Shown here: in pieces, positions 1-53,300 of the stretch
Numbering within the stretch: position 1 is the first letter of the stretch
How the letters are laid out: each line of letters starts with the position of its first letter
Assembly: GCA_034440575.1 (NCBI GenBank)
Contig: JAOTOL010001604.1
Location: 689,001-753,000 of the forward strand
Length of the DNA stretch: 64,000 nt
From: Imbricaverruca yamaguchii
Taxonomy: Eukaryota > Arthropoda > Thecostraca > Neoverrucidae
Direction of reading: 5' to 3'
Notes under the pieces: generated by a model
Database searches by the model: none
What the model was told of the DNA's origin: nothing
Seen by the model: the letters and a program-made list of their open reading frames with translations, nothing else
Translations under genes and position numbers: made by a program

Positions 1-295
1 GGCATTTTGTGGGAAAGCGTTATAGTTTAATGCAGTGGCAGGCATTCATGCTCATGCCTGGTGATGTACGACTAGCCGTACGAACTATGTTAATTCCAGG
101 AACGCCTTGCTGGTTACTGGAGGTGCTTCGTGAGTATTCTGGGTGAGAGCGAACAGGAATGAAGCTAGGTATGTTAAGATTAATTTCTTACTGAAGTATA
201 CGCTTTTCCTTCCATGTTTGAAAGCAGGACCATATAAATAGGTAAAGTCACTAAGGGATTTTATCTTCGGACGGATTGATCGTGGCATCACCAGT

Positions 296-356
296 TAAAG
301 TCATAAAGTCATAAAGTGTTAAGGCTTAATAAGGGCCACAAGGGCCCATCTGGGTC
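296..356 (-). repeat. 3' end of a CR1/L2-like retroposon with (TTTATGAC)n tail
   Basis: Read on the minus strand this is a GGGCCCTTGTGG core followed by a short tandem tail of TTTATGAC units. The same core and a closely related TTTATGTC tail terminate the CR1-like copy at 32.6 kb and a solo 3' end at 10.33 kb. Octamer-like tail repeats are typical of CR1/L2 3' ends. No coding sequence upstream of it could be recognised, so this is a 5'-truncated insertion or only the best-preserved part. Confidence 0.6.
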
Positions 357-364
357 AAGCCTGT

Positions 365-1190
365 CTAGAAGATATTAGAAAGTACATGTTCACACCTATC
401 AATTCCAAACCCATGCAATCCCTCCACCTGTGCCACCACAGCCAATCTCATCAGTATGACATCGCAAAGGAAGTTGCCAAATCCACTGCTAGGTACACCC
501 CATATAGTACAACATAATACTAGCATAATGTTATACCCTATATAGCTAGTGAAAATACTCAATATCCCATGCATCACAAGTTAGAGATTCAAAAACAACA
601 TTTTCCTGTCTAAAAAAAATTATCCACCCTACTTTTAAAGACATTCAATGAGGGACTCCCCACCAGGGTGGGTAGTTTGGGCCTCTCCTGGAAGATATGG
701 GAAGGGGACCTAAGGACATTTTATTCTCCAGGATTGTGACTGCTTGTGTAAATGTTGAACTATTACTTTGTTATTCTCCGAATGAAACGTGCCATTTATG
801 GATGTTAATTTGCTGCCAGGATCTCAGTACAGCTCCAACAATGAGTTGCAGTTTCCAGTCCATCATACAAATTAGAAGCCTGACAACAGAACAGAAGAAT
901 TGGCTGTGGGTATTGTTAGAGGTCATAAGGCATGAAATGCAGGTTGCAGTCAATTGCTCCAGAAATCATATCATGTTATGTCAGAATACCACAAGTTTGT
1001 GGTGGTTGTTTCGTTGATTGTGCATGTGTCAAGCAAACTATGTCCTGGCTCAGTCTGGCCTCAATCAAGGTGAACTTGCGGGGGTTACTCAGGTAATCGT
1101 TGGTTTGGAGGGATGCCTGAAATCTGAATGAAACAAAAGCATCGACATAGCATAGAAACAATAGAGAACAAAATAATATAATTTCGGAAC
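365..1190. other. No recognisable gene
   Basis: Only short open frames occur here (for example 697-1017 on the plus strand), without a recognisable family, good codon texture or splice context. The sequence GTTACTCAGGTAAT occurs at about 1085 and again at about 1197, just outside the CR1 ORF2 stop. It may mark a repeated 3' tail of that element. Confidence 0.4.
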
Positions 1191-1339
1191 TAGTTGTTAC
1201 TCAGGTAATTACTCTCCAGGGTATGTAACACTGGCAGGCGGCCCAGCAATCACTCTGTAACCACAGATGAATCGTTATAATAGGGCTTGCCAAAATCCAA
1301 GCAAATAACAAAGATATGAGGGTTAGGTTGCGTGTGTTT

Positions 1340-4153
1340 TTAGAATTTTGTAGAAATATCTGCATCAGCAGGCAGCCTATTCCATTGGTCAACAACCCTT
1401 TGACTGAAGACCTGTTGTCGTTTAACTGTCCTGCACCTCATTTTGTCTAACCTGAATTGATGACCCCTATGGGATACTCTAAACTGCAGAGCATCATTCA
1501 AATTGACCTGATCTAGCCCTCTAACAATTTTGTACATTTCAATCATGTCTCCCCTTAATCTCCTATACTTGAGTGAGTACATATCTAATGCATTAAGCCT
1601 TTCTCCATATTCTAAGTTACTTAATCCACTGACGAGTCTAGTGGCTTTGCGCTGGACTCTTTCTAACATATCTATATCCTTTTCTAGGTAGGGGCTCCAT
1701 GCTTGTACAGAGTACTCCAAGTGGGGCCACACATATGCTAAGTACAGCTTTTTCATGACTTCCCTGCTCTTATATTTCACACTTCTATTAATGAGTCCCA
1801 GCATTCTGAGTGCCCTATTTCTAGCTGAGATACATTGTTTTTCTGCTTTAAGGTCTTTTGAGACCAACACACCTAAGTCCCTTTCCTCTTCAATAACATC
1901 CAGTTCCCTCCCTCCCATTTTATAACTGAATGTCTCGCCTGCAGACCCTATATGCATAACCTTACACTTATCATAGTTGAAAGTCATCTGCCATTGATCA
2001 GCCCACTCTTTTAGGTCGTCCAAATCTAGTTGAATATTACTAGATTGATCTCTGCTGTTAGCCACTCCTACCAGCTTGATGTCATCAGCAAATTTGAACA
2101 CTCTATTCCTCAGCCCTACTTCAATGTTGTTCACAAAGATGATAAAGAGGAGGGGCCCTAGAACAGAGCCCTGTGGCACTCCACTCAGAACATCTTTCCA
2201 ACCAGATTTACATCCATTCAATACTACCCTTTGTTTCCTTCCCTGCAACCATGCTTCAATCCAATGTAGAACTTTTCCTACAATCCCATGTTGTTGTAAT
2301 TGATGAATTAACCTTCCATGTGGAACTTTATCAAAAGCTTTGCTAAAGTCCAAGTACACAACATCCATCCTGCTTTCATTGTCTACTTCTTTGGTAACAT
2401 ACTCAATGAACTCCAATAGGTTAGTTAAACAAGACCTTTGAGATCGAAATCCATGTTGAGTATCCCTTAAAAGGTTGTGCCTATCAAGATGAATCTGAAC
2501 ATTCTGTTTAACCAGCTTTTCTAGTACTTTGCAAACTAATGAGGTCAAACTGACTGGCCTGTAGTTTCCTACACTCTTCCTATTTCCCTTTTTGAAAATT
2601 GGTACTACACTTGCATTTCTCCAATCTTCAGGTACTTCTGAATACTCCATAGATCGCCTGAAAATGATACCTAGGGGAGTTGCTAAAGCTTTAGCACACT
2701 CTACTAAGATCCTAGCATATATTTCATCTGGTCCGGAAGCTTTATTAGGTTTTATATTCTGCAACTGCTTCTCTACGGCTTCTGTAGTTATTGTAAGATC
2801 CTCCAGCATATCACCTGCCATGGCATGGCCTACAGATGTTCCTATTGTACCATAATTATCTTTAGTGAAGACTGATGAGAATTGCTTGCTTAGGGATTCC
2901 ACAATGTCGCAATCATCAACCACTATTTCCCCATCTACCTCCAGTGGTCCTACACTACACTTTTTAGCCTTAAATTTATAGAAGCTAAAGAATCTCTTAG
3001 CATTACCTGCTGAACATTCTCGAGCAAAGTTGATTTCAGCAAGTCTTTTAGATGCTCTAACACACCTCCTAACTTTATTTCTAGCTATTCTATATGATTC
3101 TAGGTTTAACCCAGAGTTAGTATCTTTTAGTTTCTTGAATGCTTGTTTCTTTGAGTCCAGTAATTGCTTAACTTCCCTAGTCAGCCACGAAGGGTGCTTA
3201 ACCCTGTTTGATCTAATTTGCCTACTGGGAATGAACCTATCCTGACCCTGAAATAGCTTATCTTTTATCATTGTCCACATTTCATAAGCATCTAAGCCAT
3301 TCAATATGACTTCCCAATTAATTTCACTTAGGAAGCTCCTGAACTCACTGTAATTCCCTTTTGTAAAATTCGGAATCAATGTTCTGTTGGTTGCTACCCT
3401 TCCAACATATAATGAGAAGCGTATAATGTTGTGATCACTATTACCAAAGGTCTCTCCTACGTTAACATTTTGCACAAAATTTTCCTCATTAGTAAGCACT
3501 AGATCTAATATTTTATTTTCCCTTGTAGGCTCGTGTATCATTTGAAAGAAGAAATTGTCCTCAAAACAAGCCATGAAACATCTTTCTGATTTGCTTACAC
3601 CTATTGTTTTGTTTCCCAATCCTGCTATGTTGAAATCCCCCAACAAAATAGTTCTCTCCTGTACTCTCCTACTTATCTCTTCCTGCATCAGCCTGTCAGT
3701 GTTTTCATTCTGGTCTGGAGGTCTATAGAATGCCCCAATCCTAAATTTTGTTCCATTCTTCAGAATTATATCTAACCACAAAGATTCTACTCCTGCACTA
3801 TGTACTCCATCCTCTATGGAATGACATTTCATTACTTGCCTAACATACAAGAGAATGCCACCTCCTATCCTTGCCTCTCTTTGATAGGCATGCATGTTGT
3901 AGCCTGTCAATTCAAATTCTTGCAAGTTGTCTCCAAACATGCTTTCGTTAACCCATGCTTCTGTTATGCACACCAAATCTAGCTGTTCAGACAACATATA
4001 TGCATGCAGTTCCCCAATTTTGTTCCTAACACTTCTGGCATTGACATAAAAACATGATAAATTATTCCTTCCATTGCTTGCTATGCTTCTCTCTTTATCA
4101 GCTACATCCCCCCATGTCCTGCCTAGTTTCCCTGTTTCCTGTTGAGAGCCTCC
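1340..4153 (-). CDS. CR1-like ORF2: AP endonuclease plus reverse transcriptase
   Basis: This is the replication protein of the element: it nicks target DNA and reverse-transcribes the element RNA. The frame is open from just after a TGA at 4153. The first Met that gives the 885-aa product is at 3997, but homology begins earlier (NARSVRNKIGEL). Counting from that Met, the endonuclease shows GDFNIAG near residue 117 and GNSDHN near 186. The RT shows YLDFSKAFDKV near 550, GVPQGSVLGP near 605 and the catalytic FADD near 635, followed by the CR1-type C-terminus (RPHLEY-like, QAWSP, LERVQRKATRLV). It overlaps the end of ORF1. The last residues (after DQWNRLPADADISTKF) run into a stop about 20-30 residues earlier than usual for the family, perhaps by a late frameshift. 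The copy looks nearly intact. Confidence 0.9.
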   Translation of the reverse strand, partial: GGSQQETGKLGRTWGDVADKERSIASNGRNNLSCFYVNARSVRNKIGELHAYMLSEQLDLVCITEAWVNESMFGDNLQEFELTGYNMHAYQREARIGGGILLYVRQVMKCHSIEDGVHSAGVESLWLDIILKNGTKFRIGAFYRPPDQNENTDRLMQEEISRRVQERTILLGDFNIAGLGNKTIGVSKSERCFMACFEDNFFFQMIHEPTRENKILDLVLTNEENFVQNVNVGETFGNSDHNIIRFSLYVGRVATNRTLIPNFTKGNYSEFRSFLSEINWEVILNGLDAYEMWTMIKDKLFQGQDRFIPSRQIRSNRVKHPSWLTREVKQLLDSKKQAFKKLKDTNSGLNLESYRIARNKVRRCVRASKRLAEINFARECSAGNAKRFFSFYKFKAKKCSVGPLEVDGEIVVDDCDIVESLSKQFSSVFTKDNYGTIGTSVGHAMAGDMLEDLTITTEAVEKQLQNIKPNKASGPDEIYARILVECAKALATPLGIIFRRSMEYSEVPEDWRNASVVPIFKKGNRKSVGNYRPVSLTSLVCKVLEKLVKQNVQIHLDRHNLLRDTQHGFRSQRSCLTNLLEFIEYVTKEVDNESRMDVVYLDFSKAFDKVPHGRLIHQLQQHGIVGKVLHWIEAWLQGRKQRVVLNGCKSGWKDVLSGVPQGSVLGPLLFIIFVNNIEVGLRNRVFKFADDIKLVGVANSRDQSSNIQLDLDDLKEWADQWQMTFNYDKCKVMHIGSAGETFSYKMGGRELDVIEEERDLGVLVSKDLKAEKQCISARNRALRMLGLINRSVKYKSREVMKKLYLAYVWPHLEYSVQAWSPYLEKDIDMLERVQRKATRLVSGLSNLEYGERLNALDMYSLKYRRLRGDMIEMYKIVRGLDQVNLNDALQFRVSHRGHQFRLDKMRCRTVKRQQVFSQRVVDQWNRLPADADISTKF

Positions 4154-4999
4154 TCATACCTATTGCTGAGCAATTCCACTCCTCTCTTGCTCAGATGTAA
4201 TCCATCTAAAGCAAACATCTCCGTCCTCCCCCAAAACTCCCCCACAAATCCAAGAACTGCACCCCAAGCTCCTTACAAATGTTGGCCACCCTGGTATTGA
4301 GCCCAATGGCCCTCGAATACCACTCCATGCTTGCATGGACCATAGGGAGGATGGATGTCACCACTCCTCTTTTCCTACTTCCTGCTAAACTACCTATCAA
4401 AGCCCTATAGGCTTTCATTGTTTCCTCTGTATTATTTTTTTCCTACATCGTTAACTCCAACCTGCACAATTACCGTTGCACCCTCTCCACTTCCCCTCAT
4501 TACTCCCTCCAGCCTATCCCTAACATCTTTCACCTGCGCTCCCGGGTAGCAAACACGCATCCGTCTGCTGGGGTTCTTGCTACAAAATGTTCGATCCATG
4601 TACCGAACCCTGGAATCCCCTATGACTAAAACCTCTCTCTCTCCATCTCTATCTTCAGCCATCTGGTCATCCCCACCTCCGTCCCTCTCATCATTACCTT
4701 CCCTCTCCTCCAGTGCATCAAACCTATTTTTAATTGGGACGCCCATGTCCACCTTCCTTAGCGCCAGTCGGGTGCTATGGCGCCTTGCCACCTTCCAACT
4801 GCCACCATCCCGGACCAAGCCATCCGAACTCCCATCAGTCCTCCGCTCGGGCACCCGAGTTGCCTGGCTGGCACCTCCCATGATGGGTCCCGCCACCAAA
4901 CACTTCAAGCGCTCCACCTCCCCCCGTTAACATATCTAACCTCTTACTCAAGTCCCCAATGATTCCCACACACTTACAATTCCCACAGTCTCCTTCCAT
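4123..4999 (-). pseudogene. CR1-like ORF1 with SGNH/GDSL esterase domain, frameshifted
   Basis: Translation from the ATG at 4999 begins MEGDCGNCKCVGIIGDL, a short CxxC/heptad leader. It continues in a second frame (4917-4432) with the SGNH block I VLVIGDSRVRYMD and block III VGVNDVG. It then shifts frame again (4418-4206), and once more to the block V residues DGLHLSKRG, ending at a TAG at 4123-4125. Each break sits in a homopolymer: a G run near 4925, an A run near 4436 and a G run near 4245. Esterase-type ORF1 proteins are known from CR1-clade elements. Either this ORF1 is dead, or the breaks are homopolymer sequencing errors, because ORF2 next door is open. Confidence 0.8.
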
Positions 5000-5004
5000 T
5001 TTTG

Positions 5005-5480
5005 TTGTTGTTTTTTTTTTCTTTCTACTCTTAGTACTAAGTCTAGTTACTGTAAGCTTGTAAGCCTACAAGTATCTACTGTAATATATCTACAGTAATA
5101 CAGTAATATAGCCTATAAGTATCTACAATACACTATAATCCCGTATAATTACACTAGATATGAAGATACCTACTGTAATTTATGCCCACTATTTTAGTCC
5201 TAAAATCTATCTTAAACTTACACACCAATTTGACACAAACTTATTCACTACAGAAGCCTACACTATAGAATTATACACTCTAGAATTACACACTACAGAG
5301 CTCACACCACACAAATATACACCACTGAATCAAACACTGTAGTACCCGTCCACAACACCCAACAATCCTGCAGTTACACTAGGATATGAAGATATACCTA
5401 GTGTAATGCTATGCCTACTATCTTAGTCTTAAAATCTATCTTAAACTTAAACACCAAATTGACACAGCCAACACCCTTAG
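5005..5480. repeat. AT-rich region with a ~226-bp tandem duplication
   Basis: The block around 5157-5255 (TATGAAGAT, then CTTAAAATCTATCTTAAAC-like text) recurs about 226 bp later at 5383-5470 with small changes. The first part (5040-5130) is built from overlapping TATCTACAGTAATA-like words. No coding potential is apparent. The same type of sequence precedes the related block at 29.6 kb. Confidence 0.6.
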
Positions 5481-5840
5481 AACTTAACAAAATGGCGCTG
5501 GGCAGCCTCCCTGGGTTAATATAGCCTAATTTGCTGGTCAAAAATACTTATTTGATAAAAACTGTTGAAATATACGCTCAGAAGCAACCGCTAAATATCT
5601 ATACACAATTTATCCCAGTACACCGTCCTTTTCCGCAACACTTAGCTCGTATGTAGTAGCCCCACCAAACACGTGTTTCCTCCTCAACGCCTGGCGGCAG
5701 ACATGCTCCAATACCTCCACTGGGAGAAGATTCAAGTGATCCATACCAACGATGGTATATAAAATGTTCACTTTTAGCAACCACGCGCTCGCAGGGCGAC
5801 CAGTCACCCAACGGCCTTGCAACCCACCAGTTCAATGTGG
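5480..5840 (-). repeat. Dispersed repeat/gene tail, paralogous to 29.57-29.96 kb
   Basis: This segment and 29570-29960 share AATGGCGC, GGTTAATATAG, GATAAAAACT and the spacing between them. Both then give a minus-strand reading with CRQ followed by a conserved ending (HVCRQALRRK here, IVCRQVSRW there). They appear to be two diverged copies of the 3' end of the same gene or element on the minus strand, with the coding end near 5600 and an AT-rich trailer to the left. The family was not recognised. Confidence 0.5.
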
Positions 5841-6123
5841 CTCTTTTCTTTCAGCTTCACACTGTGACTTGTCAGCAAGTACCTTCTGCATCTGAATTGT
5901 TTTTGGCAGCTGCTCAATGCATGTTTTTGTGAAAAGTATACATGCCTGGATAGCAAGCCGGTATACTGTCTCTGGAGCATACATGCTAAGCTTGACTCAT
6001 TCTTTTCCTGATGGCCTCCTTATCCACAGTGCATTTTGGCCACATGCTGCCTTTCCTCTTCTATTTTGGTTTAGACTCCAGATCCTTGACATGGGAAAGC
6101 TCTGTGTATGAGATGTCCCTGTT

Positions 6124-6420
6124 TCAGGCAAACTGCACCTTGTAGCTGGTCTTGCTCAACCCAGACAGCTCAATTGTGCATGCCTGTTGATCATGTTCCA
6201 GATGCTTTCCCACTTCCACTTTAAACAGAACTGCAGCAACATGACAGCATGCTTCACCAATGCCAGCCATGCATGTGCAATGAGCACTAAGGATGGCACC
6301 ATTGTTAGGGTCCACCATTGCCCATACAATATAGGGCTGGTTCTTTGAAAGCCTCTGGCTTGGCATCACTTTATTTTTCACAAACATTGCAGGTGTTTTG
6401 TCCAGATAGATAGCATACCT
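6124..6420 (-). pseudogene. SWIM zinc-finger protein fragment
   Basis: The minus-strand frame contains a SWIM-type C-x-C-xn-C-x-H finger, AHCTCMAGIGEACCHVAAVL, preceded by YIVWAMVDPNNGAILS. This local sequence is characteristic of a widespread family of animal repeat-associated proteins in which a SWIM finger precedes a YqaJ-like exonuclease domain. No YqaJ part can be traced downstream here. The frame closes at 6124 and the upstream end is lost near 6420. I regard it as a remnant of a mobile or multicopy gene, function unassigned. Confidence 0.6.
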
Positions 6421-6424
6421 TGAT

Positions 6425-7870
6425 CTCTTTCACATGTCCTGACTGCACAAAGTTATGTTTCCAAAGACAGATAAGCACATAGGGGAAGCAGGTGGGTTGA
6501 CAAACACTTAAGACATCGTACATTGAATGGCCCTACCGCTGCTTCTGTATGGCCGAACCAGTAAGTGTATGGTGCTTACAGGATGCAAAAATGAACAAGC
6601 TATCCATATTTATGCAGTTCCTTTCGATGAAGATCCTCTAACCACTCAAGAGAAGCAGCTGAAAAACTGGCGATTATTTTGTGGTGGGGTGCGGTATTCC
6701 GAACTAAAAATGCTGCTGTCGTGTATTACGAACACCAGGTGTGTAGTTTCCCGAACACTTTTATGAATCAATTTTATCTCGCACATTGTTTTATTTGCTT
6801 GTGATGGAAGTTCATTTTGTGGTTGCTATGCATTTTTGTATTATAATCCTTAACACATTTATTTATGAACAGCTGTATATGGGCTGGGTATGGGCGGATA
6901 TAGGAAGTTTGTTAGGCAACATAGTGTTCATTCTATTTTATTGATTTATCTCATCGAAGGAAGCATACCTGATTAGACAACAGTCAGAATGGTGGCTTTT
7001 TGCCACTTCTCATTCAGACAATACTTGGAACCGATCCACCAGTGGAAATTTCAGTGGTGGCAGGGGCGGATCCAGCAATATCGTGTCGCTCGTCCGAGTC
7101 ACTATTTTCATCGAGGGGTACCACCATGGATGTCCCTGAAGGGGTGCGTCCAGAAAACAATCGTGTATCCATTCCTGATTGGAGGAGCGAACAGCCCCTG
7201 GCACTGGTCATTACATATTGTCGCGTATTACTGGGGGCGGGGGCTTGGTTAATCCTGTTGACCCCGCATCGCTAATGGATCTAGCTGTCCCGTCATAATT
7301 CTTCCACAGTCCAGTTCATGAGCAGGTACATCCAAAGGTATTCTTGTATTAATGTTTCACGACGGCGTAAAAATACGTCACAATGCGTGTCGGGTGGTAT
7401 TTACGTAGTAGCGATACCCAGCGCTCGAACAAGTTCTCGATCACGTACTGAGCAAACCCTGATTCAGCACAGCCATTGGCACGAATGAGCATCTTGAATT
7501 ATTGGCATTGAACACAACCAAGCGTCATACGGAGAGCTTGACTAGATCATAAGATAAATATATTCCTCGCAAGGCCTCTGGACATCGGGGAGGACTTGAC
7601 CACAGCATACGCTCAGGCAATGCCCCGCAACGCTTCTTGACACCGGGGAGGGCTCGATTATGTGATGCGTTCAAGTAATGTCCCGCAAGGGTTCTGGCTA
7701 CCGGGGGAGGGCTCGACTACCCGTCTCTGCGCGCGGACACGGCGGCAACGGTCGGTACAGACGTCACTGCGGTGAACGACTCGCGCAGGCACCCAAGCAG
7801 CGTCGCTCAAGTCACCCTTACACACACACACACCAAACAAGGCTAACCAGCAAGCAACTGACAAGTAATT
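6425..7870. other. No recognised gene
   Basis: A plus-strand frame at 6527-6766 has some protein-like texture (a C-x4-C pair, then AVPFDEDPLTTQ), but no family is recognisable. The stretch 6990-7275 has overlapping open frames on both strands and none convinces. Between 7560 and 7720 a phrase like TCTGGACATCGGGGAGGACTTGAC recurs about every 60 bp in degraded form (near 7575, 7635 and 7690). Confidence 0.35.
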
Positions 7871-7874
7871 GAAA

Positions 7875-8811
7875 CTAAGCAGGCACAGCGCCGGTACATG
7901 CCTCGCACACGAAGTCTGCGAAGGCCTCTTCTTGGTCACTGTCGTCGTCCAGCAGATGAGCGTAGTTAGCCCTCACATAGGGCAATGCGCACAGGATGTG
8001 GACCGTTGCGGGGCAAGTGTCGCACTCAATCCATGCCTTGTCCACCCCGGACTCGTATTCTTGGCGCCAGCTGGCTGAACATCTCACACATGTCCAGTCC
8101 GATTCCTTCCTAAGCGCTGCTGCGCGAGCCGACGTGCGCCGGGGAGCTGGCGGAGCCTGGGCTGCATCAGCAGCCGTCTCGCGCCCAGCAGGCTGGGCCG
8201 GCGGGGATACCGCTGGTCCGCACGCCGTTGTGGGCCGGGGAGCGGGCGGAGCCTGGGCCGCATCAGCAGCCGTCTCGCGCCCAGCCGGCTGGGCCGACGG
8301 GGATGCCGTTGCTCCGCACGCCGGTGTGGGCCGAGAAGCGGGCGTAGTGTGGGCTGCATCAGCAGCCGTCTCGCTGCGGGGATGCCGTTGCTCCGCACGC
8401 CGGTGTGGGCCGAGAAGCGGGCGTAGTGTGGGCTGCATCAGCAGCCGCCTCATGCTCAGCCGGCTGGGCCGTCCGACCCATTCTTGCCCGGCGACGCCCT
8501 CGGGACAACCGACTGCCGCGACCTGGCCGACGTGCCGTCTTCCGCTCTCTCTGCTCCTCATGGTAGCGGCGCCAGGCGGGCGCCGAGATGCAAGCGGGAA
8601 GGAGCTCCGTCCTTTCTTTGCCACTTGGCGTGTACTGCCTTGTGGGCATAAACAGATGTTTGGCGAATGCTTCCGCTGTTTGCGCCTGCTGCTCCGGCCG
8701 TACAGGGTGCGGAGGATGGCACGTGGCAGACCTCACTGGTATCTGGCTCGTGGCCAGTGGTGACGGTCGCCTCTGGCTGGTCGTCAGTCTGAGCTCGAGT
8801 TCACCCTGCAA
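7875..8811 (-). pseudogene. C-terminal part of a pogo/jerky-like (DDE_1) gene with PHD-like finger
   Basis: The minus-strand frame from 8811 carries FMPTRQYTPSGKERTELLP and SAPAWRRYHEE, the kind of linker found after the DDE_1 core in pogo/jerky-like proteins. A Pro/Ala-rich repeat follows. After a frame change the end is a PHD-like zinc finger: CVRC, then AWIECDTC, H-x-x-C and FVCEAC. The catalytic core is absent, so this is a 3' fragment or last exon. The frame change is explained by a 17-bp deletion in one repeat unit near 8370. The very high GC of the coding part contrasts with the flanks. The pogo/jerky link is inferred from arrangement; the zinc-finger residues are visible directly. Confidence 0.5.
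8100..8460 (-). repeat. 96-bp coding minisatellite (Pro/Ala linker)
   Basis: Four units, marked by GCATCAGCAGCCG at 8164, 8260, 8356 and 8435, encode a 32-residue repeat (ETAADAAxxxPAxRP...). The first two spacings are exactly 96 bp. The third is 79 bp because a unit lost 17 bp, and this shifts the reading frame. A period divisible by three suggests the array expanded while under coding constraint. Confidence 0.75.
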
Positions 8812-8829: not shown

Positions 8830-9536
8830 ACTGGCATAGTAGTCGGTGGCAAATAATGGATGGGGATGTGGAGCAGAGGGTTTTCAAATGACTGTTTGAA
8901 TACTGTGCCACAGGCGTAAGATAGATGTAATGTTCTTACGTGAGATAGATGTCATAACCACTGTATCCGCCCCTGTCAGGCGCAACCTTATGGGCTTAAA
9001 CGTATAATTAAGTCAGTGTTCGGAACTCGACACACCTGTCTTAGCGGGCGCAGGTACACGTGCCGTATACCGAACACTGCTGTTCGGTTCAGGGAACACG
9101 CGGAAATTGGCCTACCTCGTTTGCCGAACACCTTTCTGAGCCGATAAAGACGGTGTTTAATACATTTCAGCCGAATAAAACATGGTTCCACACAATCACA
9201 ACACTTCACTGTAGCTGTTGTGGTACAAGTTAATAGTATCCACTGGAAACTATCGGTATGATTGCAAAAAATATCGGAGGTGCCTTCCTTACGGTTTCCT
9301 TAAGCCAACTGCCCTCAAAAGGTTGAAAATGGCGTCCGCGGGCTTCGTTAGCTCCGTACACAAAGAATCGGTGGAACTACGCGATCGGTTCTACGTATTC
9401 CGGTAGAGAAAAGTTCACTGTTTACGAACTCCGCCATCTTCTTGTTATTCACGGGCTACACGTGACGCGAGGGACGTCCAAAGGTGTCTGTTCGGGAAAC
9501 GAAACGTGTTCGGATACCCCCCTCTTCCCCTATATA
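8830..9536. other. Non-coding stretch with CCGAACAC/GTGTTCGG motifs
   Basis: No gene was recognised. The heptamer CCGAACA or its complement occurs repeatedly (near 9017, 9069, 9082, 9124, 9493 and 9508) in both orientations. A related GTTTCCCGAACA lies at 6747 in inverse orientation to the one near 9490. This may be a decayed DNA-transposon end or a binding-site cluster; neither is proven. Confidence 0.35.
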
Positions 9537-9594
9537 TGGGTGCTGTATGACTGAAGCAGTCGATGCACCCCTAAGCCCAAATAACCAACCAACC
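9537..9594 (+). mobile_element. 58-bp hairpin retroposon, copy a
   Basis: A compact unit starts TGGGTGCT, passes through ATGAC and GTCGATGCACCCC, continues CTAAGCCCAAAT, and ends in an (AACC)3 tail. The 5' TGGGTGC can pair with GCACCC and ATGAC with GTC.AT, so the whole body folds into one stem-loop. Three other copies with the same 5' start and the same type of tail are in this window (10486, 15499 and 31735). No clear target duplication is left at this copy. Confidence 0.6.
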
Positions 9595-9599
9595 TCACT

Positions 9600-10325
9600 C
9601 ATATACTGGCTCACTGTGCACAAAGTAATGATACAGGCTTGGCCACTCAACAGTCGGCCAGTCCTTTACCTGCACCAACCACAAACCATCATTAATGGTA
9701 TATGGATCAGAATATTTGACCCCTTTGTGCTCCAGTCTTGTAAAGTGGTCCTGTCCTCAGCACTGAGGGTATCAGTATACTTAGACAAATCCATTGTTCA
9801 CATTGGCTATCTCACTTTTGAAAAAAAAACTGCCATATTACCATTGAAAAACACCCAATATTGCACAGCTTCTCCACTGCAAAACAGGCTAAACAATAGG
9901 GAAGTTCAGTATCTATGCTGTGTGCTGCAAATGTATCCCTCCACACCTAATAGCACCCCTAGCGGCGAGCAGCAGAGGACGAATCAGTCTCTTCCTTTGC
10001 TGTGCAGGAAGCTACTGCGATTTCCAAAAACCCATATATCTGATATTATTCCAACAATCTGCATGATTCCAGCACTGAAAGAAGGCTTGTTTCATTATCT
10101 TTCACCAATGTGTGCCACTTTTTGTCTGGTGATCCAATCTATCATGGTATAAGAGTCAGCTAAGTTGTTTTGAAAGGTGTTATTTTTTTCCTTTGGAATT
10201 ATTCTTTGAAATGCCATGGTGGGTGAGTAAGGTGAGTAAGATAATGGAACCTTTTTTGTGCAAATGCTAACTTTTGAACCTAAGCTAACCTAGCCTAACC
10301 AATGAATGTACTGGTCCAGTACATT
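9600..10325. other. No recognised gene
   Basis: The plus-strand open frame through 9484-10152 includes the hairpin retroposon and has no family resemblance, so I do not call it a gene. A palindrome with two 10-bp arms (AATGTACTGG/CCAGTACATT) lies at 10305-10325, directly before a CR1 3' end. Confidence 0.4.
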
Positions 10326-10327
10326 CA

Positions 10328-10392
10328 CCAGTACATACCAAGAAGGCCCCTTGTGGCTCATAGTAGCACTAATCTTTTATGTCTTCATGGTC
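10328..10392 (+). repeat. Solo CR1/L2-like 3' end
   Basis: The stretch matches the 3' terminus of the CR1-like copy at 32.60-32.67 kb almost word for word: ACCAAGAAGG, CTTGTGGCTCATAG, GCACTAAT, then TTTATGTC. The octamer tail is reduced to one and a half units. No RT sequence precedes it, so this is an extreme 5' truncation. Confidence 0.7.
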
Positions 10393-10399
10393 TAAGGTA

Positions 10400-10700
10400 A
10401 GTTGGCTTTTAATTAAAAATGATGCTTTTTGATGGGATTGATACTGTGACCACTTAGTTTCTCTATAAATGATTACTTTTAAGTCTGGGCGCTAAATGAT
10501 CTTGTAGTCGGCGCGCCCTTAAGCCCAAATAATCAATCAATCAATTACTTTTAAGTCAATGGTGATCAGTGCAATTGATGATGTCATAGACACATGTCTG
10601 CAGCTTGTAACCCAATGTTTGAAGAAGGAACTGGAACCCCATGGTAGTGAAATCCAGCAACACCAATTTGATTAAGGGTGTTTTCGGAGCTGACACAGAA
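10400..10700 (-). repeat. Diverged copy of the ZSWIM-family 5' block, split by a retroposon
   Basis: Text around GATTACTT.TAAGT followed by GTCAAT(A/G)CAATTGATGA and a CACAGGCAC-like word is shared with 20890-20990, 35140-35260 and 39610-39690. Those copies lie next to ZSWIM-like coding segments. The 10.4-kb copy has no coding part that I can trace. It is useful mainly because the other copies give the empty site for the hairpin retroposon inserted at 10486. Confidence 0.55.
10472..10557 (+). mobile_element. 58-bp hairpin retroposon, copy b, with 14-bp target duplication
   Basis: The body at 10486-10543 (TGGGCGCT ... GTCGGCGCGCCC ... AAGCCCAAAT plus an AATC-repeat tail) is flanked by a perfect 14-bp direct repeat, ATTACTTTTAAGTC, at 10472-10485 and 10544-10557. 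The paralogous sequences at 20.89 and 39.62 kb contain the uninterrupted site once. This proves insertion of a 58-bp unit with target duplication, as expected from LINE-type retrotransposition. Confidence 0.85.
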
Positions 10701-14690: not shown

Positions 14691-15659
14691 GTATGTATAT
14701 ATGGATGAAGGCTTCATAAAACTATTGGTGTTACCAGCATGTAATTCAACCATATTGCTTTCATACACATAATAATAAACTGCATATCTGCATGTACAAT
14801 TAGCATGTAATGCAAAAGGTAAAATTAAGCAACCTTGAGGAATTGTCGGTATTTAAATCATGTGCACATAAGGGATGCGTTCAAATTTATTTGGTATTTA
14901 TATAAAGTTTTGTGCCAGTTTTGGACTCGTGGTGAAGCCTATTATGCAACTGACCATATTCTTCTGCATCAAATGAATTTTTTTTGTCTATCTTTTATTA
15001 TTACCCTTTTGATATCTTTTGCATACAATATCTTACCAGTGGCATCTTATGGACATCGCTAACCAAACACTTTCCAAGTAACATATATTCTAAATCTATT
15101 TTCTTACCTCTTAATATTCACTCTGAAGGTTCATTTGCTTGACAGTACATTAGCTTAGATAAAAACTGCTACATTTTGGTCTCATGATTCTTCGCTTTCT
15201 TGGTCTTCTTTCCAGAGTAATTCTGCTATTGGTGTTGCATAATCAGGGATTCACCACTATTGTATACCTAATGTTGGGTAATGTAGCATGCATACTCATG
15301 TTGTAATTGTTATACTTGTCCCACATTAATGCTGCACCAATGTCGGCAATCGCAGTGGTTGATGTATCCATGAACATGTGCCAGTGAAAATAGAATGATT
15401 ACTCTATAAATATTTAATTCCCATTTTTCTGCAAGCTAATATGGCATGCTTTGCTGTTATTTTTCGCAATTGCTATGAAATATAGGTAGGCACTAATCGA
15501 TTGATTGATTGGTTGGTTGGTTATTTGAGTTTTAGGGTGCATCGACCAGGTTTCGTCATTCAGTGCCCATTTACCCTTTTCAGGTCTCAGACCACTTACT
15601 GATCGGATGAAAGATGTGGCTCTCCATGCTCTTATGCTAACTTCTGTTGCTAATTGCAG
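14691..15659 (+). other. Inferred THAP-gene intron, 969 bp
   Basis: It begins with GTATGT and ends with a TTGCTAATTGCAG acceptor. Joining 14690 to 15660 keeps the frame (phase 1) and produces YILS-A-DPSKKPYLKRN, the sequence type that normally follows a THAP finger. The intron is AT-rich and contains hairpin retroposon copy c near its 3' end. Confidence 0.65.
15499..15569 (-). mobile_element. Hairpin retroposon, copy c
   Basis: Read on the minus strand it starts TGGGCACTGAATGAC, continues through GGTCGATGCACCC and AACTCAAAT, and ends in mixed AACC/AATC repeats. The body is 47 bp, the same length class as the copies at 9537 and 10486, with a longer tail. It lies in the THAP intron, 90 bp before the acceptor. 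No clear target duplication remains. Confidence 0.6.
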
Positions 15660-18366: not shown

Positions 18367-18879
18367 ATGCGTCTGGTGCTACATTGCAGCGGCAGGATTA
18401 GACGGAATGGCAGAACCAAACACTTCTAAGACAAGAGTTCACCAGGGCTATCGACCACATTCGGCACGAATGCTGTGCTTAAGAACGAACAGAGGAATAA
18501 CCTCTTCCCCCAGGACACAGTAAGCATGAATAAAAACATAACACAGCCATCCAATAATTGGTTTCCTTTAAGTTATGATAAGGTTGTCTTTGTTTTGAAC
18601 ATGATGTTTTATGCTATATTGCCCACCTTCGAGTGATATTGCAGTTCAGGGTTGTTTGGTTTCCAGGTTTTCAAGGTACACTTTTACACCACACATTTTA
18701 CTTCCATGAGGCATATGGAGTGGATATATCTATCCACCCAGATCTGTCATGATTTGCACAGAAGTGCTCTCTGGTGTAAGTAAGGACCATCTACAGCACT
18801 GGACATTCAATCATCTTCACATGTCCTGTTGGCGGCATATTGTGGATTTGCATCAGGGTCATCAGCTATTGTGTCATCC

Positions 18880-20635
18880 AATTATTCAGCAATGACGAAG
18901 GGCCTGCCTTCCTGCAGACAATCCAGGACCAGCGTCAGGTTCTTTGCCAGGTCTTCGTGTTCCCGACCGGATAGCTCAGCTCCTACAGATGCTATTTGTG
19001 CAATTATAGTTTGGAGTTTTCGGAACCGTTGTCGTTCAGTTCTCGGAATGAGAGCCTGTGGAAGGGGTCGTGACGACACACCTGCAGTTGAGGCAGCGCA
19101 CGGTACAACCTGAGCCTGTAAATGGTCAGCTGTATAAGACAGGAGCCACTTGTTGCCAATGAGGTCCTGTGAAAGCAATGACATGCTTTGTTGCCGTCGA
19201 ACTGCGAATATGTGCTGACAAGGCATGGAGTACTGTCGATAAAACACGCACCCACATCCCGTTGGACTGACATCCACGTGTCCAGAATCGTCTCATGCAG
19301 CCTAGCGTCCACCTGTGACGGCACTCAAGGAAGCCGAACCAGCAACTTTCAACTCCTCCCTGATCAGCGAAAGAGCAAACGGCGTGACATGACGCTCGTA
19401 GTCTCCAAGTTCGCCGTGACAAGATGTCGGGCGCTTGCTGATTGCCGGGTGCATTTCAGCATTCCTGTCGGCGCGGATAGTGCTTAGCACAACAAGATAC
19501 CCAGACACACACTTTTTCAGGGTGTCCTGGGCATTGTACACAGACTTTAGATTGCCATGGAGCAACTCAAGATGGTTGTTGGTGAAGACACCAGACATGT
19601 CCCCCCCCCCCCCCTAGAGAGCCCTCGCACCCACTGATCCATGATTTCATCCTAGTTGTCCCTAAGGTAACATTCTGTGGAAGCATGTCTAATATCTTGA
19701 CGAACACGTTTATACTCTGCCTCTGATCTGGCATATACAAGCTGCTGTAGAGTCCGTAGAATTCGATCCCTCTCGGTCTTGGTCATTCCAGCGAGATTGA
19801 GCTCTCGCCGAAATGCCTGCAGCACATGGGATGTGCATAGGAACAAGTTGCAGTTTGGGAACACGTCGATAATCGCTCTGTTACTGCTTTGCCATAAGTG
19901 ACCTGCAAATGTTGCTGAAGGTTTTTTTGTCGGCACCTGATGGTGATATTGCCGTGCTTTGACCTTTGCTTCCTCCGTGAGACGACGATTTTCAGGCTGC
20001 AACAGAAAGTTTTCCTTGGATACTGGATGGCAATGGTTGAAGTTCACATGCTTCACTACAAGGCGCAGGGTTTTATCCAGAGAGACCTGGATGCTTGCAG
20101 CATATCCAGGTTTCTTAGTTGTGGCTCTCCTAACCCTATTGTCGTCTGCCTTATTTTGGTAGTGTCGGCCACCCTGAGTACAAGAGAACGTGATAGACTT
20201 GCACTTCTTATTTCCCAGAAGAGTCTCACTGCTTGCCACCAATTCTGACAGGAAATGGCCAGGACTAGTTTTCAGAAACTTGCTCAAAGTTACTGAGCTA
20301 GACTTGAAGAATGTCACATTGGTACAGTTTTCTAGCTCACGAATCCGAACACTAACTTCATCAAAGGAATCAGAACAGTCACCTTCACTCAGTGAGTCCA
20401 TCCTCGTTAGTGCCTTGAATCCCCAGTTCTCTGAAACACATTGCAGAAAATCGTCAGCAATTTGGTTCCTTCTTGCTTTTACTTCTATTTTAAGAATTAA
20501 GTTAATGGTTGGCATGGAGGTAGCATTCTGAAATCGCCATGTAGGCACATTAGCATCAGAGTAAGGTACATGATGCAATGATATGACAATGATGTAATTG
20601 GTGTTGGGGAGGGAATGGTCCATTAGACATTGCAA
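18880..20635 (-). pseudogene. MULE/ZSWIM3-like transposase-derived gene, copy 1 (core-deleted)
   Basis: Read on the minus strand: an N-terminal module (SLSEGDCSDSF, then FFKSSSVTLSKFLKTSPGHF), VKHVNFNHCHPVSKENF, and the late MULE segment AIIDVFPNCNLFLCTSHVLQ with FRRELNL. After a poly-C interruption at 19600 it continues to a SWIM finger, CGCVFYRQYSMPCQHIF (near 19250), and a C-terminal helix rich in RxFRKLQ. This is the ZSWIM1/3 order. The stretch that should hold the DDE residues, between PENRRLTEEAK and AIIDVF, is reduced to about 20 residues and ends in a frameshift. Copy 2 at 37.4 kb has the same deletion. The copy cannot encode an active nuclease. Confidence 0.7.
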
Positions 20636-20689
20636 ACCAGCTCACAGCTCACACAATTCCTTAAATGATGCCACAAGAGAGGGCAATAC

Positions 20690-21050
20690 GCACTGCTGGT
20701 AATATAACTGCATGTCAGCTACAACTGCAGGTAGATTAATATATGTGTCAAGGATCATGATCAGCAAATTCCACATGAACCTAAAAATGAGGTGCCATCA
20801 AATAAAAGGTAAATTTGGAGGTAAAGGTAATTTTTTAAGGGAATAAAACGTTTTTTTTTTTCATGTGGTTAAGACAATGTAACCATATCTTTTATCAGCG
20901 AATGATTACTTATAAGTAAATGGCAGTCAATACGATTGACTTCACAGGCACAATACAGAGACAATGTGCTACCATATTAATGGTATTTTGAGTTAATGCT
21001 GCTAGCAATTACATTTTTTTATTAAAATAAAATATAATCCCCTTCTTACC
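20690..21050 (-). repeat. ZSWIM-family 5' block
   Basis: This AT-rich segment upstream of copy 1 is nearly identical to 39430-39758 (shared words: GATCATGATCAGCAAATT, AAATAAAAGGTAAATTTGGA, TTATCAGCGAATGATTAC, TAAAATAAAATATAATCC). A diverged copy is at 35.0-35.28 kb. I take it as the 5' non-coding part of the family. It holds one of the empty sites for the hairpin retroposon found at 10486. Confidence 0.65.
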
Positions 21051-26780: not shown

Positions 26781-27330
26781 TTCGAGTGCGAGTTTGGTTG
26801 TCATGTGGGTCTGGAATCAGTGTTGCATCCGGGCCTTTTTCTGAGTTTCACGAATGTACAGTCCATCGCATGAGCATATGGCTTTTCGTGTTCAGCCAAT
26901 AACTGGTTTTCGGGTTGCGTGATTGTGTCCTCAGTGATACTTGTCCGTAGTTTGTCATGACGGACCTTCCATGGCCTCCCGTGTGAATCGGGAGTATGAA
27001 GTTGCAGTCAAATTGTGGCCCTTTAATTCAGAGTTTCTTTTGTATTCCATTGCCAATGATCTGTTTGTTTTCTGCTTTTGCATATTTCCAGTCCTGTAGC
27101 CATTATTATAAAAAAATGCAGTCACCGGCTGTCTTTTTTTCTTCATAGGGTTGACGCCATCCATTATTATAAACCTCCCAGGAAAAAAAATAGCAGCAAC
27201 GAAAAGAAGACATGGAAATGCAGACACCGACTGTGTTTTGGATATTATAAAACTTAACTGCGGCAGTCTGCGCATAAAATTGCGTCACGTTTGTAAAATA
27301 ACTCGGGCTCGTGTCGTGAAAAAGAAGCAA
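26780..27330 (-). pseudogene. Possible parvovirus capsid-like fragment, heavily decayed
   Basis: The minus strand shows frame-shifting pieces: AQTAAVKFYNIQNTVGV, then MDGVNPMKKKRQPV and NMQKQKTNRSLAMEYKR. In order and spacing these resemble the HPMQAVELHLLENTAQ and DGGKNPRRVQP segments of the VP-like frame at 36.3-37.1 kb. The similarity is weak, spans several frames and may be coincidental. If real, it is a second, older endogenous parvovirus-like piece. No intact frame remains. Confidence 0.25.
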
Positions 27331-31290: not shown

Positions 31291-31766
31291 ATCTTTCACT
31301 ATTCCCAAACAACTTCTTTCTTCATCCACACAGTTAACGGTGAAGTAATTTTAGGACACTGGACAGAGTACATACACAAATACATCTTATGCACATGCGT
31401 TGAAGCACACGCTTTATGGATCAGGTTGTCCACCAATATTGACAAAATGGTTTTAATTGTCAAGTCCAAGCATCGGCTGTATTTAAATACCAACCCAGCA
31501 ATGGACATGGCAACAAGTACATATGATCCGATCGTTACAGTAATAATGTTCATGGCTTCCCTAGACAACTTCCCTATATATCTCCCATATACACTATATG
31601 CCTGCATATCCATGATGCGTTATCATCTACTGCACTCGTGTTCTCGTGTGTGTATGAACGAGCGAGTGAATAAGTAATTAAGCGTACGTGTGAGGGACGA
31701 GTTAGTGGGTGAGTGCGTACCTGGTAAGTGAGTGGTTGGTTATTTTGGCTTAGGGGCGCATCGACT

Positions 31767-32561
31767 GGACAAGATGAGCATATCTCGCTGCAAAAAGATT
31801 TAGACGAACTTGTGAAGTGGTCCGAAGAATGGCAAATGAAATTTAATTTTGATAAGTGCAAAATCATGCATGTAGGTGAGCAGCATATGAAGGCTCCATA
31901 CTTGATGGGTGGCCAAGTGCTATCAGTGACTAAACAGGATAAGGATTTAGGTGTTATTCTAAACACAGAACTGGGGGCATCAGAACAGACCAAGGAAGCC
32001 AGGAAGAAGGCACTGAGAATGCTCGGGGCAATAAATAGGAATGTATCATACAGAAGTGAGGAAGTGATCAGGAAGCTTTACTGTGCATACGTCAGGCCAC
32101 ATTTGGAATACTGCATCCAAGCTTGGTCTCCTAGCTATGAAAAAGATTGTTGGCTTTTAGAGAGAGTACAAAAGAGGGCTACAAAAATGGTTAATGGCAT
32201 AAGCAACCTGGCATATGAGGAAAGATTGAAGAAATTGAATATGTTTTCACTTAGATATAGAAGGCTGAGAGGAGATCTCATCGAGGTCTTTAAATTTGTC
32301 CATGGTCTGGAGAGGGGATACCTTGGGGAAATGTTTGAATTGAACAGAAATGATGCAATTAGAGGTCATAAATTCAAAATTAAAGTTAACCACAGCAGAA
32401 CAAGGTTAAGGCAAACTTTCTTCACCAGCAGGGTAGTAGAACACTGGAACCAGCTGCCAGAAAACATTGTCAGTAGCAGCACATTGAACATCTTTAAAAA
32501 CAGCATAGACAATCATTATAAGAATAGAGGGCTTGCTTTTCAGTATTACAGGGAGGGCTGA
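31767..32561 (+). CDS. CR1-like ORF2 C-terminal part
   Basis: The 3' part of a reverse transcriptase ORF, without the catalytic FADD. It begins at ELVKWSEEWQMKFNFDKCK and continues DKDLGVILNT, RPHLEYCIQAWSP, LERVQKRATKMV and the terminal FTSRVVEHWNQLP. The frame is intact to a TGA at 32561. It is clearly related to, but a different subfamily from, the ORF2 at 1340-4153 (for example HLEYSVQAWSP there). It cannot be functional alone. Upstream residues in the same open frame come from the interrupted hairpin retroposon. Confidence 0.9.
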   Translation, partial: GQDEHISLQKDLDELVKWSEEWQMKFNFDKCKIMHVGEQHMKAPYLMGGQVLSVTKQDKDLGVILNTELGASEQTKEARKKALRMLGAINRNVSYRSEEVIRKLYCAYVRPHLEYCIQAWSPSYEKDCWLLERVQKRATKMVNGISNLAYEERLKKLNMFSLRYRRLRGDLIEVFKFVHGLERGYLGEMFELNRNDAIRGHKFKIKVNHSRTRLRQTFFTSRVVEHWNQLPENIVSSSTLNIFKNSIDNHYKNRGLAFQYYREG

Positions 32562-32680
32562 TTGACAGATTTGGTGGGCAACTGGTTCAGTGTACAGAGT
32601 GCAACCAAGAAGGGCCCTTGTGGCTCATAGTTGCACTAATATTTCATGTCTTTATGTCTTTATGTCAGTTAGTGTACTGT
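31767..32680 (+). mobile_element. 5'-truncated CR1-like retrotransposon
   Basis: The copy starts abruptly within the RT/post-RT region and ends with the family 3' terminus (CCAAGAAGGGCCCTTGTGGC ... then three TTTATGTC-type units at 32645-32667). It inserted into hairpin retroposon copy d. The 3' end defines the family of the solo ends at 296-356 and 10328-10392. Confidence 0.85.
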
Positions 32681-33800
32681 AGTGACATTAGGGTAGCGCC
32701 CATTGGTAAGTGAGTGAACTTCTGGGCAAATGATGGGGTGGGTGATGGTGCTGGTGAGTGATTACGAAGTGAATAAGTCGGCGAGTGCAAGTGAGCATGC
32801 AGTATCATGCTATATAGGGAATTGGTTTAAAGGGGCCCCAAAGCTACCATTGTGCTTAGGGTGCCTTTTGTTCCTGATTTCATTGGATTCTGCAATGTTT
32901 AGTTCTGCTGTCTTTACAAATCCGTTGGCTTGTGATGCTCAGAGTTGCACCATCTACTACGCTCAGCATCACAATCTTACAGATTTGTAAAGACATGGCA
33001 GAATGAAAAATTGCAGAATCCGTTGAAAAAGTCACCACTGACCACAATGGAGGCTTCATGGACCTTCATAAAACCAGTTCCCTATACAGCATCACACTGT
33101 ACATACATTGCCTGCACTTGCCGACTTATCCGGTACGTAATCACCAACCAGCACAATCACTCACCCAGTTCATTCACCCTCCCAGATACGTGCTCACTCA
33201 ATACTTCGTCACTCACTCACTCACTCAGTGACGTATTCACTTACGCGTCCATCACCACATGCGAACACTTCCAATTACAGTAGGTACAGGATAATTATCT
33301 AGGGAAACCACGAACATTTTTCCGTTAGTCACATCATATGTACTTGTTGCAATGTCTACTGTCATGTTGGTATTTAAATATAGCAGATACTTGGAATTGG
33401 GTGAGGATTAAAACACTTCAGTCAATAATGGACAGCCTAATACATAAAGCATGTACTACAAACCCTGTGTGCAAAATGGCTATGTATATACTTTGTCCCT
33501 GAAGAATGGCCATACCAAAACACAGACCAACTTGTGATTCTATCTTACTTAATATAAGCATTTGGTTAATTTCTATAATCGTCTTCAAAGTATCACAGCA
33601 CGGAAATATCAGTGGACACATCCACATGTAATCGTGCTAAGATGCAAGAACAAGATGACTAGACATGCATCTTTGCAGGTCATAACCAGATATCAAACAT
33701 TCCTCAGGCAATCCCCACTCTGCTGATTCCACACCTCAGGTACACATAACGCAAAGCATGTACACAATATCACACACTGCACTCATCAATTGCATGCTCT

Positions 33801-34989: not shown

Positions 34990-35280
34990 AATTGATCAAA
35001 TGTCACAAAAATCAAGGCTACAAAAAAATTGGTGCATGCAACCCTGCTTCAGCAACAAATAGGGGCAAATATATTGACAAGGGTAAGTTTTGATTCTCAG
35101 TGATACTTTTTGATGTGCTTAAGACAAGCAACCACATAATTTATCCACAAATGGTTATTCCTAAGTCAACAGTGGTCAATACAATTGATGACTTAATAGG
35201 CACAGGTTTGTGGCTTATAGCCCTGATGCTTCAAGAAGGAACTTTTGAATCCTGTGGCAGTGGAATTTGAGGAACAACTT
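34990..35280 (-). repeat. Diverged ZSWIM-family 5' block
   Basis: It matches 20890-20990 and 39600-39700 around TTATC.(A/G)C.AATGGTTA, AACAGTGGTCAATACAATTG and TGACTTAATAGGCACA. It lies upstream (minus strand) of the chimeric ZSWIM/USP exon, as the block does for copies 1 and 2. This supports it being the same family. Confidence 0.5.
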
Positions 35281-37375: not shown

Positions 37376-37382
37376 TCATGTT

Positions 37383-38330: not shown

Positions 38331-38475
38331 GCAATGTTAAATTTTTCAAGAAAATGGGTAGACAACACCACCTAATGGAAGTTCAATCGACCTCCCTCTC
38401 TATGGCTTATGTAACATCTTTGCGTACTGCTTGCTGATAATGAAAGTTTACATAAAAACACTTGACCCTTGTGGC

Positions 38476-38569: not shown

Positions 38570-39425
38570 GCGACACCGACTTCCATTATTACAAATTACA
38601 TATTACAGAAGAAGGTATTAAAGAAGAAGGTAGGCTACTACAATGAATAATTATCCATTATTGGTTTTGGATTATATTCCAAAACCAACTTGAAATCAAC
38701 TGAAGACATCTTGAGGCCTTCAACAATTCCAATATGCCACAGTTGTGGTGCATCAATGACCTCTGACCAGCATGACCACCACAGTCAATGTGCTCCTAAA
38801 CCCCCAACCTCTGACCAGGAAATTTTATGAAACCATATCACAGATCCTCCTCTGTTTGAGATAATCTACCTAGACACCTAGACCGTGCACAGCAGCGCTG
38901 TACCGGTCTCTCAGTGCGGACCGGCGCCTGAAGGGGATACATACGGTGCCGCTGCGGAGTCGCGTCGCCACCTCTGCCGGAGTCGCGTCGCCAGCGCCCA
39001 GTAAAACCACTCGCTGGGTCTGGGTACGAGAACTGCTTTATTGCTCACATAGCGGCGATTCATCCTGACTAGAACATACCTTGGGTTCTAGTTAAGGCAC
39101 TAAGGTACACAGCTATGGAAAAGTAAGTGCAAGTGGGTTAAGTATACATGTAAGTCGGCTCAGTGAAGTGGAAGGCTATTAAGTCAGGTGGCTGCTGAAC
39201 ATAGTGCATTGGAGATGAGCGGAGAAATAAGTTGAAACGGGCCTGGATGCATAATTCACAACACTGCCCTCTAGCGTCAATAGAGCGAACCACAAGTTGA
39301 GACGCTAGATGGCGGGCGCGCGCTCACCAGCGGCTACGAGTCACCAGCTGGCCGCCAGATGGCCGGCGGATCCGCATCCGCTACAATGGTGTTATGGTAC
39401 ATGTTTCTTTTCTGGAACACAGAAA
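38570..39425. other. No recognised gene
   Basis: A GGAGTCGCGTCGCCA word is duplicated near 38955 and 38979 in a GC-rich island. Otherwise nothing recognisable. Confidence 0.35.
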
Positions 39426-39429
39426 CAAC

Positions 39430-39758
39430 TACAACTGCAGGTAGATTAATAAATGTATCGAGGATCATGATCAGCAAATTTCACATGAATCTAAAAATGA
39501 GGTTTTGCCATCAAATAAAAGGTAAATTTGGAGGTGAAGGTAAAAGTGTATTTTTTGTGAATAAAGCGTTTTTTGCATGTGGTTGAGACAATGCAACCAT
39601 ATCTTTTATCAGCGAATGATTACTTATAAGTAAATGGCAGTCAATATAATTGATGACTTCACAGGCACAATACAGAGACAATGTGCTACCATATTAATAG
39701 TATTTTGAGTTAATGCTGCTAGCAATTACAATTTTTTTATTAAAATAAAATATAATCC
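39430..39758 (-). repeat. ZSWIM-family 5' block, copy 2
   Basis: Nearly identical to 20700-21035 and separated from copy 2 coding sequence by about 1.1 kb of unrelated DNA. It ends at TAAAATAAAATATAATCC, where the LINE 3' end begins. It contains the second empty site for the hairpin retroposon at 10486 (GAATGATTACTTATAAGTAA). Confidence 0.65.
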
Positions 39759-51110: not shown

Positions 51111-51119
51111 TGTATCCCG

Positions 51120-52929: not shown

Positions 52930-53300
52930 TGTTTCGACAAGAGATTTCGTTCGAAAGCAATGATCTTGTATAGGCGCCATTAGCCGTGAATGTGTGCAAG
53001 ATGGGTCGTCAATTATCCGTTCGCAAATGGTCTAGTCTAGCTTTGAATTTAGGTGTTTTTGTGTTTTGTTTTCTTTTTGTGCGTATGATAAGGCAAACTG
53101 TTCACCAACTGGCCAAAGCACTGTTGTAGAAATGTGGCTACGCGAATACAGTTTGATTTGTCATCGTATGAGATATAGTTATGTTGGGAAAGTAACAGAA
53201 GGTCGTTGGTGAAGAGGCTGAAGAACAAGCATGCTATATGTGGTGGCGGTTGTTGGTTTTACGACACCTCGAACGTTGAGTCATGTAGTGTCGCGAATCT
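52930..53300. other. No recognised gene
   Basis: Flank of the LTR retrotransposon; AT-richer, nothing recognisable. Confidence 0.4.

Follow-up and report, generated by a model that had tools for sequence, protein, structure and literature searches.

A 58-bp hairpin unit in the genome of Imbricaverruca yamaguchii is probably a promoterless, LINE-dependent retroposon

The window analysed here, a stretch of 64,000 nucleotides from the genome of the thecostracan Imbricaverruca yamaguchii (contig JAOTOL010001604.1, positions 689,001 to 753,000), harbours a very small inserted unit that probably represents a promoterless retroposon depending on a LINE and comprising little beyond a LINE-type 3' stem-loop and its tail. 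Four full copies (a, b, c and d), all with a TGGG start, a hairpin and a tail of AACC or AATC units, are accompanied by a truncated one (e). There is good support for retroposition accompanied by target duplication, as three of the five copies are bounded by perfect direct repeats of 12-14 bp and empty paralogous sites exist for one of them; the common start of four of the five copies of the window supports a short template with a defined end. Statements on abundance and 5' ends refer throughout to this one window of 64,000 bases, with a GC content of 0.50.

Four copies had been reported in an initial annotation made from the letters alone, and all four proved to be where it had placed them. 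Copies a (9537..9594) and b (10486..10543) are full-length units on the plus strand with an AACC and an AATC tail, respectively; copy c (15499..15569) is a full-length unit on the minus strand, in whose tail AACC units turn into AATC units, both types occurring within a single copy. Copy d, running on the minus strand from 32702 down to 31735, is split by a LINE fragment: the 5' part of its hairpin, beginning with TGGGCGCT, occupies 32676..32702 (the inner boundary was set by hand), the 3' arm of the hairpin together with the AACC tail is found at 31735..31767, and the 5'-truncated LINE fragment sits within the loop on the plus strand at 31768..32675, both of its ends being approximate. From an alignment of the four copies (A1) we built a covariance model capturing both sequence and structure (R2); the row of copy d in the alignment, in the model and in the four-row loop test described below hinges on a hand-placed join at the CAGT common to both halves. 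Being training sequences of the model, the copies scored 81.3 bits (a), 75.9 bits (b), 71.6 bits (c, with a match at 15511-15569) and 29.8 bits (the 3' half of d). When the window was searched with this model up to E 10, 14 matches were obtained, namely the four known copies, copy e, a candidate copy f and eight weaker ones (E 0.35 to 9.7). The 20-base 3' motif GCRCCCYTAAGCCCAAATAA was matched four times in the window with at most three mismatches, as against zero matches in 100 shuffles, and a scan for the tail pattern gave five rows corresponding to four distinct tails, each of which (4/4) is attached to a hairpin body.

Copy e (38771..38806, plus strand) is a 36-bp insert that is 5'-truncated inside the hairpin and has a shortened tail. 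The model detected it with 18.1 bits (E 0.023); the match spans 38757-38809, the insert proper being confined to 38771-38806 and beginning at the inner stem. Compared with part of the consensus, the repeats left aside, it reached a score of 30, the highest among 100 controls being 21, although the ungapped scan used for this purpose is insensitive, with the known copies b and d attaining just 21 and 22. A truncated copy of this kind fits target-primed reverse transcription.

The perfect repeats flanking copies b, d and e, all given here on the plus strand, differ in sequence. Those of b (ATTACTTTTAAGTC, 14 bp) are located at 10472..10485 and 10544..10557 and had been described in the initial annotation; those of d (TGGTAAGTGAGTG, 13 bp), which had likewise been noticed, lie at 31722..31734 and 32704..32716, outside the nested LINE; and those of e (ACCTCTGACCAG, 12 bp) are found at 38759..38770 and 38807..38818. 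Both the element and the LINE fragment lie between the repeats of d, which is most simply read as a later entry of the LINE into the loop of copy d. In this window, which is rich in tandem repeats, the repeat scores of b and of d were each equalled by 3 of 2000 random position pairs. The surroundings of the d repeat abound in GTGAGT-like words; 2000 random tries inside that stretch gave no shared 13-mer (close pairs were skipped and their number was left uncounted). No target duplication above chance was seen for copies a and c, 1099 and 1788 of 2000 random pairs being as good. The unit thus shares with classical SINEs the properties of being short, dispersed, non-coding and associated with target duplications, with five copies per 64 kb and perfect duplications in three of the five.

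The target of copy b has paralogues in the window that align to it without the insert, at 20855..20939, 35104..35188 and 39569..39653 (all on the plus strand). Alignments to these paralogues scored 50, 59 and 77 with the insert omitted and 44, 55 and 69 with the insert retained; the flanks of b had been joined with one surplus base (the right flank was taken from 10557 rather than 10558), which introduces a one-base gap and leaves the conclusion the same. Two of the unfilled sites, near 20.9 and 39.6 kb, had been recognized in the initial annotation, and the one near 35.1 kb is a third. Together with the simple-repeat tail, the 12-14-bp duplications and the truncated copy e, the empty sites speak for insertion through target-primed reverse transcription carried out by a LINE protein.

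The body of the element was originally described as folding on itself, and this is clear in copies a and b, with fold energies of -16.6 and -14.1 kcal/mol (z -3.12 and -1.87), but not in copy c, which barely folds (-6.4 kcal/mol, z -0.01). The joined halves of d gave -12.1 kcal/mol, a figure that comes without a shuffle control. The arms of a and c depart from GGGCGC/GCGCCC solely by changes of CG to TG or CA, of which CpG decay is a simple reading. Folding the consensus RNA had been suggested as a check; a hand-typed consensus with the CpG sites restored folds at -18.1 kcal/mol (z -3.96), with one of 200 shuffles being as good. CpG decay is uneven along the window: taken in 8-kb steps, the observed/expected CpG ratio itself lies between 0.44 and 1.13 (1-8000 versus 48000-64000). 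The four copies show no significant covariation, with one pair changed on both sides and the same result reached by 267 of 500 shuffles. Invariant columns are absent from the loop (0/8) and frequent elsewhere (31/47; p 0.0006) when all four rows are considered, and the same holds for a, b and c alone, which are free of the d join (0/8 versus 33/47; p 0.0003). The small number of rows and the uncertain alignment of the loop make this a hint that the stem and the tail are conserved rather than the loop. The arrangement expected of a 3' stem-loop beside a simple-repeat tail is found, with the fold being clear in a and b and weak in c, and the tail being present in all four full copies.

Since GGGCGC and GCGCCC are inverted repeats, one may think of a DNA-level element of the foldback or MITE-like type, bounded by short terminal inverted repeats. 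Beyond the 3' arm, however, lie about 24 bp of conserved flank and the simple-repeat tail, so that this arm is not terminal; the duplications of 14, 13 and 12 bp are not of one length, and one copy is 5'-truncated. Neither the terminal inverted repeats nor the fixed-length duplications of MITEs and foldback elements are thus found, and we regard such an origin as highly improbable.

A further candidate copy, f (53248..53294, minus strand), was matched by the model with 17.3 bits and E 0.037, although E-values of this kind are rough according to the tool's own warning. Its outer stem, CGACAC/GTGTCG, differs from that of the other copies but is fully paired, and the core ATGAC...TCGA is kept and followed by TAAAACC. 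None of 400 Markov controls contained a strict pattern of this layout, written after f had been seen; in the window it occurs at a and at f (three matches in total, one at a and two alternative pairings at f). A loose structure scan yielded seven matches in the window (a, b, f and four others), with controls averaging 2.75 and reaching a maximum of 9, and taken alone it proves nothing. Candidate f adjoins a 118-bp direct repeat (53302-53419, with the second copy at 57518-57635) that flanks a reverse transcriptase-integrase element.

Searches for a promoter or a known RNA in the element were all negative. ARAGORN found no tRNA in the 64-kb window, Rfam gave no match in the window at gathering scores, and when the threshold was relaxed to E 10 for the region 9400-10700, three weak matches appeared, none of them on the element. 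The independence from tRNA proposed in the initial annotation accordingly stands by absence only, there being neither a tRNA nor an Rfam match in the window. Copies a, b and c were scanned with the A-box and B-box consensus; the best A-box match had two mismatches, a result shared by 1214 of 2000 random stretches, and the best B-box matches had three, five and two mismatches, respectively, inside the random range. The previous impression that no Pol III boxes are visible thus agrees with scores no better than random in these three copies, and the internal Pol III promoter of classical SINEs is not seen in the element.

An alternative source would be a small hairpin RNA of the host, snoRNA-like or of another type, that is occasionally retrocopied by a LINE and has no life of its own; such an RNA would naturally possess a defined 5' end. 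There is a precedent in the platypus, whose snoRNA-derived retroposon is likewise short and devoid of an internal Pol III promoter and is said for that reason not to have undergone multiple rounds (PMC3747384). Our element, unlike the platypus one, has no snoRNA or other Rfam match and ends in AACC/AATC repeats rather than poly(A), and the wide differences among the loops of its copies suggest several sources. We therefore consider the host-RNA origin improbable.

The TGGG start is found in four of the five copies (a, b, c and d), whereas e begins inside the hairpin, so that the common start initially claimed for all copies holds for the former four and fails for the latter. Copies a, c and d have an A before TGGG and copy b a C, and the start may hence be one base earlier in the former three. 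The upstream flanks of a-d are unrelated, with any pair sharing at most 4, 6 and 12 matches over 10, 20 and 40 bases, respectively. Were truncation uniform over a 58-nt template, the chance of four equal starts would be near 5e-6, and lower for longer templates.

The most serious competitor of a short defined template is that a longer LINE or SINE left the copies as its 3' ends, with reverse transcription tending to halt at the outer edge of the hairpin and thereby creating a false common start. Stringent-type LINEs are indeed described as requiring a 3' stem-loop bound by their protein (PMC4176376), and the truncation of copy e is in line with such an origin. Yet four of the five copies stop at one and the same position, past the hairpin that the enzyme would already have traversed, and no similarity exists 5' of TGGG between any of copies a-d. 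The scattered ends and the upstream LINE body expected of 5'-truncated LINE copies are not found within the window, where the start is the same in four of five copies. We judge this explanation rather unlikely, less so than the two alternatives above, and continue to favour a short LINE-dependent retroposon.

The LINEs of the window itself bear on the same alternative. A long LINE, which we take to be of the CR1 type from its 8-base tail units, extends on the minus strand over about 287-4926 and encodes an endonuclease and a reverse transcriptase in one open frame (1340-4153); its tail consists of TTTATGAC units near 296-317. A frame upstream in this element (4432-4926) resembles an SGNH esterase by eye. 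The LINE fragment in copy d exhibits 50% protein identity to the long LINE over 245 aligned positions and is itself without a Pfam match at E 0.001; it carries a tail of TTTATGTC units near 32646-32666, which marks it as an element distinct from the hairpin. The three LINE 3' ends examined in the window thus bear tails other than that of the hairpin unit, made of TTTATGAC, TTTATGTC and TGACT units, which speaks against the copies being ends of a longer element, and no partner LINE ending in this stem-loop and tail was seen in the window. Possible partner ends were also sought in the (AAAT)n tails at 29.2 and 46.75 kb, which were dismissed, as no YTAARCC string precedes them by eye. As a lead, the ends of many invertebrate LINEs comprise a stem, then a TAARCCC-like string and then a short repeat.

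We also looked beyond the window. Scans of viral contigs with the hairpin pattern gave no matches, and the CR1-type protein had two pattern matches in viral contigs, neither of them confirmed. The lone pattern match in genome contigs, in a bacterial MAG (L001), lacks a tail and, by eye, a 5' arm, and was taken as due to chance. Against plasmids, the LINE protein matched 91 records, all with less than 60% identity; among the 20 plasmid matches listed, 11 are annotated, all of them as group II intron reverse transcriptases.

Very short insertions in the window are not restricted to the hairpin unit. Among 57,849 unmasked bases, exact 12-mers recurring 30-300 bases apart form 11 pairs, compared with a mean of 1.03 and a maximum of 5 in 60 Markov control sequences, which hold no old duplications. 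Six of the 11 pairs enclose 29-58 bp; these comprise copies b and e and four inserts unrelated to the hairpin by eye, of 46, 50, 48 and 29 bp, residing between perfect 13-14-bp direct repeats at 7645-7716, 21738-21815, 27100-27173 and 44211-44265. On its minus strand, the one at 21738-21815 terminates in CAGTTT units resembling a LINE tail. Very short insertions with 12-14-bp duplications may hence be frequent in this genome, which fits either a machinery using or leaving short templates or the fill-in repair of staggered breaks. The four additional inserts of 29-50 bp, by suggesting that very short insertions are frequent here, also lend something to the idea of a longer LINE or SINE of which the hairpin copies are mere 3' ends.

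Other repeats of the window include a frame for a DDE_3 transposase, presumably mariner-like, at 41689-43022, which lies between 32-nt inverted repeats that are 94% complementary and is apparently a fairly complete DNA transposon. Repeated fragments at 18870-20641, 25567-26113, 33801-34328 and 37368-38331 are 85-97% alike where paired by the repeat search, and the frame 19652-20641 has a FAR1 match under the cut-off of Pfam. The fragment 33801-34328 is tied to this group solely by similar protein text, judged by eye.

At the level of titles and the beginnings of abstracts, no unit of this kind was found in the open-licence PMC literature. LINE-tailed SINEs of the stringent type (eel, zebrafish L2) are the obvious comparison, being likewise short and non-autonomous and having a 3' stem-loop and a repeat tail, which those SINEs have in common with a LINE (PMC4176376, PMC3747384). 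Unlike them, our element has no apparent Pol III head or body before the stem-loop, and its partner LINE is putative. In ZfL2-2, protein binding follows the loop (PMC4176376), whereas in our element no part varies more than the apical loop. The insertion chemistry is likely the same as that of the 5'-truncated 3' ends of CR1, L2 and other LINEs, from which the element differs in having a start common to four of five copies rather than scattered ones.

SINE-like elements such as EhLSINE, EdSINE1 and SINEX-1, -2 and -4 are longer than 58 bp. These elements, from Entamoeba (the former two) and Chlamydomonas (the latter three), are listed with an unknown promoter and a 3' end shared with a LINE (PMC3747384), and the lack of a known head is therefore not new in itself. 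Tailless retropseudogenes of therian mammals, which were screened from a size of at least 30 nt, are also short inserts with target duplications; they are 3'-truncated copies of known RNAs and are tied to a relaxed L1 (PMC5322556), whereas our element keeps its 3' end and tail in the four full copies. Neither a match to a known RNA in Rfam nor the loss of the 3' tail, which is conserved in all four full copies, is thus observed here.

How the unit might multiply can be outlined by analogy with stringent LINEs, whose protein binds the 3' stem-loop, a structure required for retrotransposition, and whose tail recurs in partner SINEs (PMC4176376, PMC3747384). The unit resembles the stem-loop and tail of such a LINE with nothing in front, and its link to a LINE would be of this nature. 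An RNA of about 58 nt would form an outer stem GGGCGC/GCGCCC, an internal loop, an inner stem UGAC/GUCG and a free apical loop, and continue 3' of the hairpin with YTAAGCCCAAATAA and the AACC or AATC repeat tail. After binding the stem-loop and the tail, a protein encoded by a putative partner LINE would nick the target and, with priming on the tail, copy the RNA up to its 5' end at UGGG, the insertion leaving target duplications of 12-14 bp. With no internal promoter being apparent, we infer that a few source loci may be transcribed from flanking or other, as yet unknown, promoters.

A LINE-dependent short retroposon would in itself be of a known kind; what would be new are the size, the absence of a body in front of the stem-loop and the free loop. 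Going one step further, one may tentatively envisage, as a possibility we rate below the LINE-dependent retroposon as such, that a stem-loop recognized by a LINE has turned into a replicator, 58 nt long, headless and promoterless, with a free loop and an outer stem that, as candidate f would illustrate, can change provided that it stays paired. If true, it would constitute a natural minimal template for target-primed reverse transcription. The unit would be one of the smallest jumping units if borne out genome-wide, and a promoterless unit raises the question of how its transcription persists. Should the TGGG end hold throughout the genome, the element would show how little RNA a LINE needs, would present the recognition element isolated from any carrier, and its natural loop and stem variants would reveal the requirements of the LINE protein.
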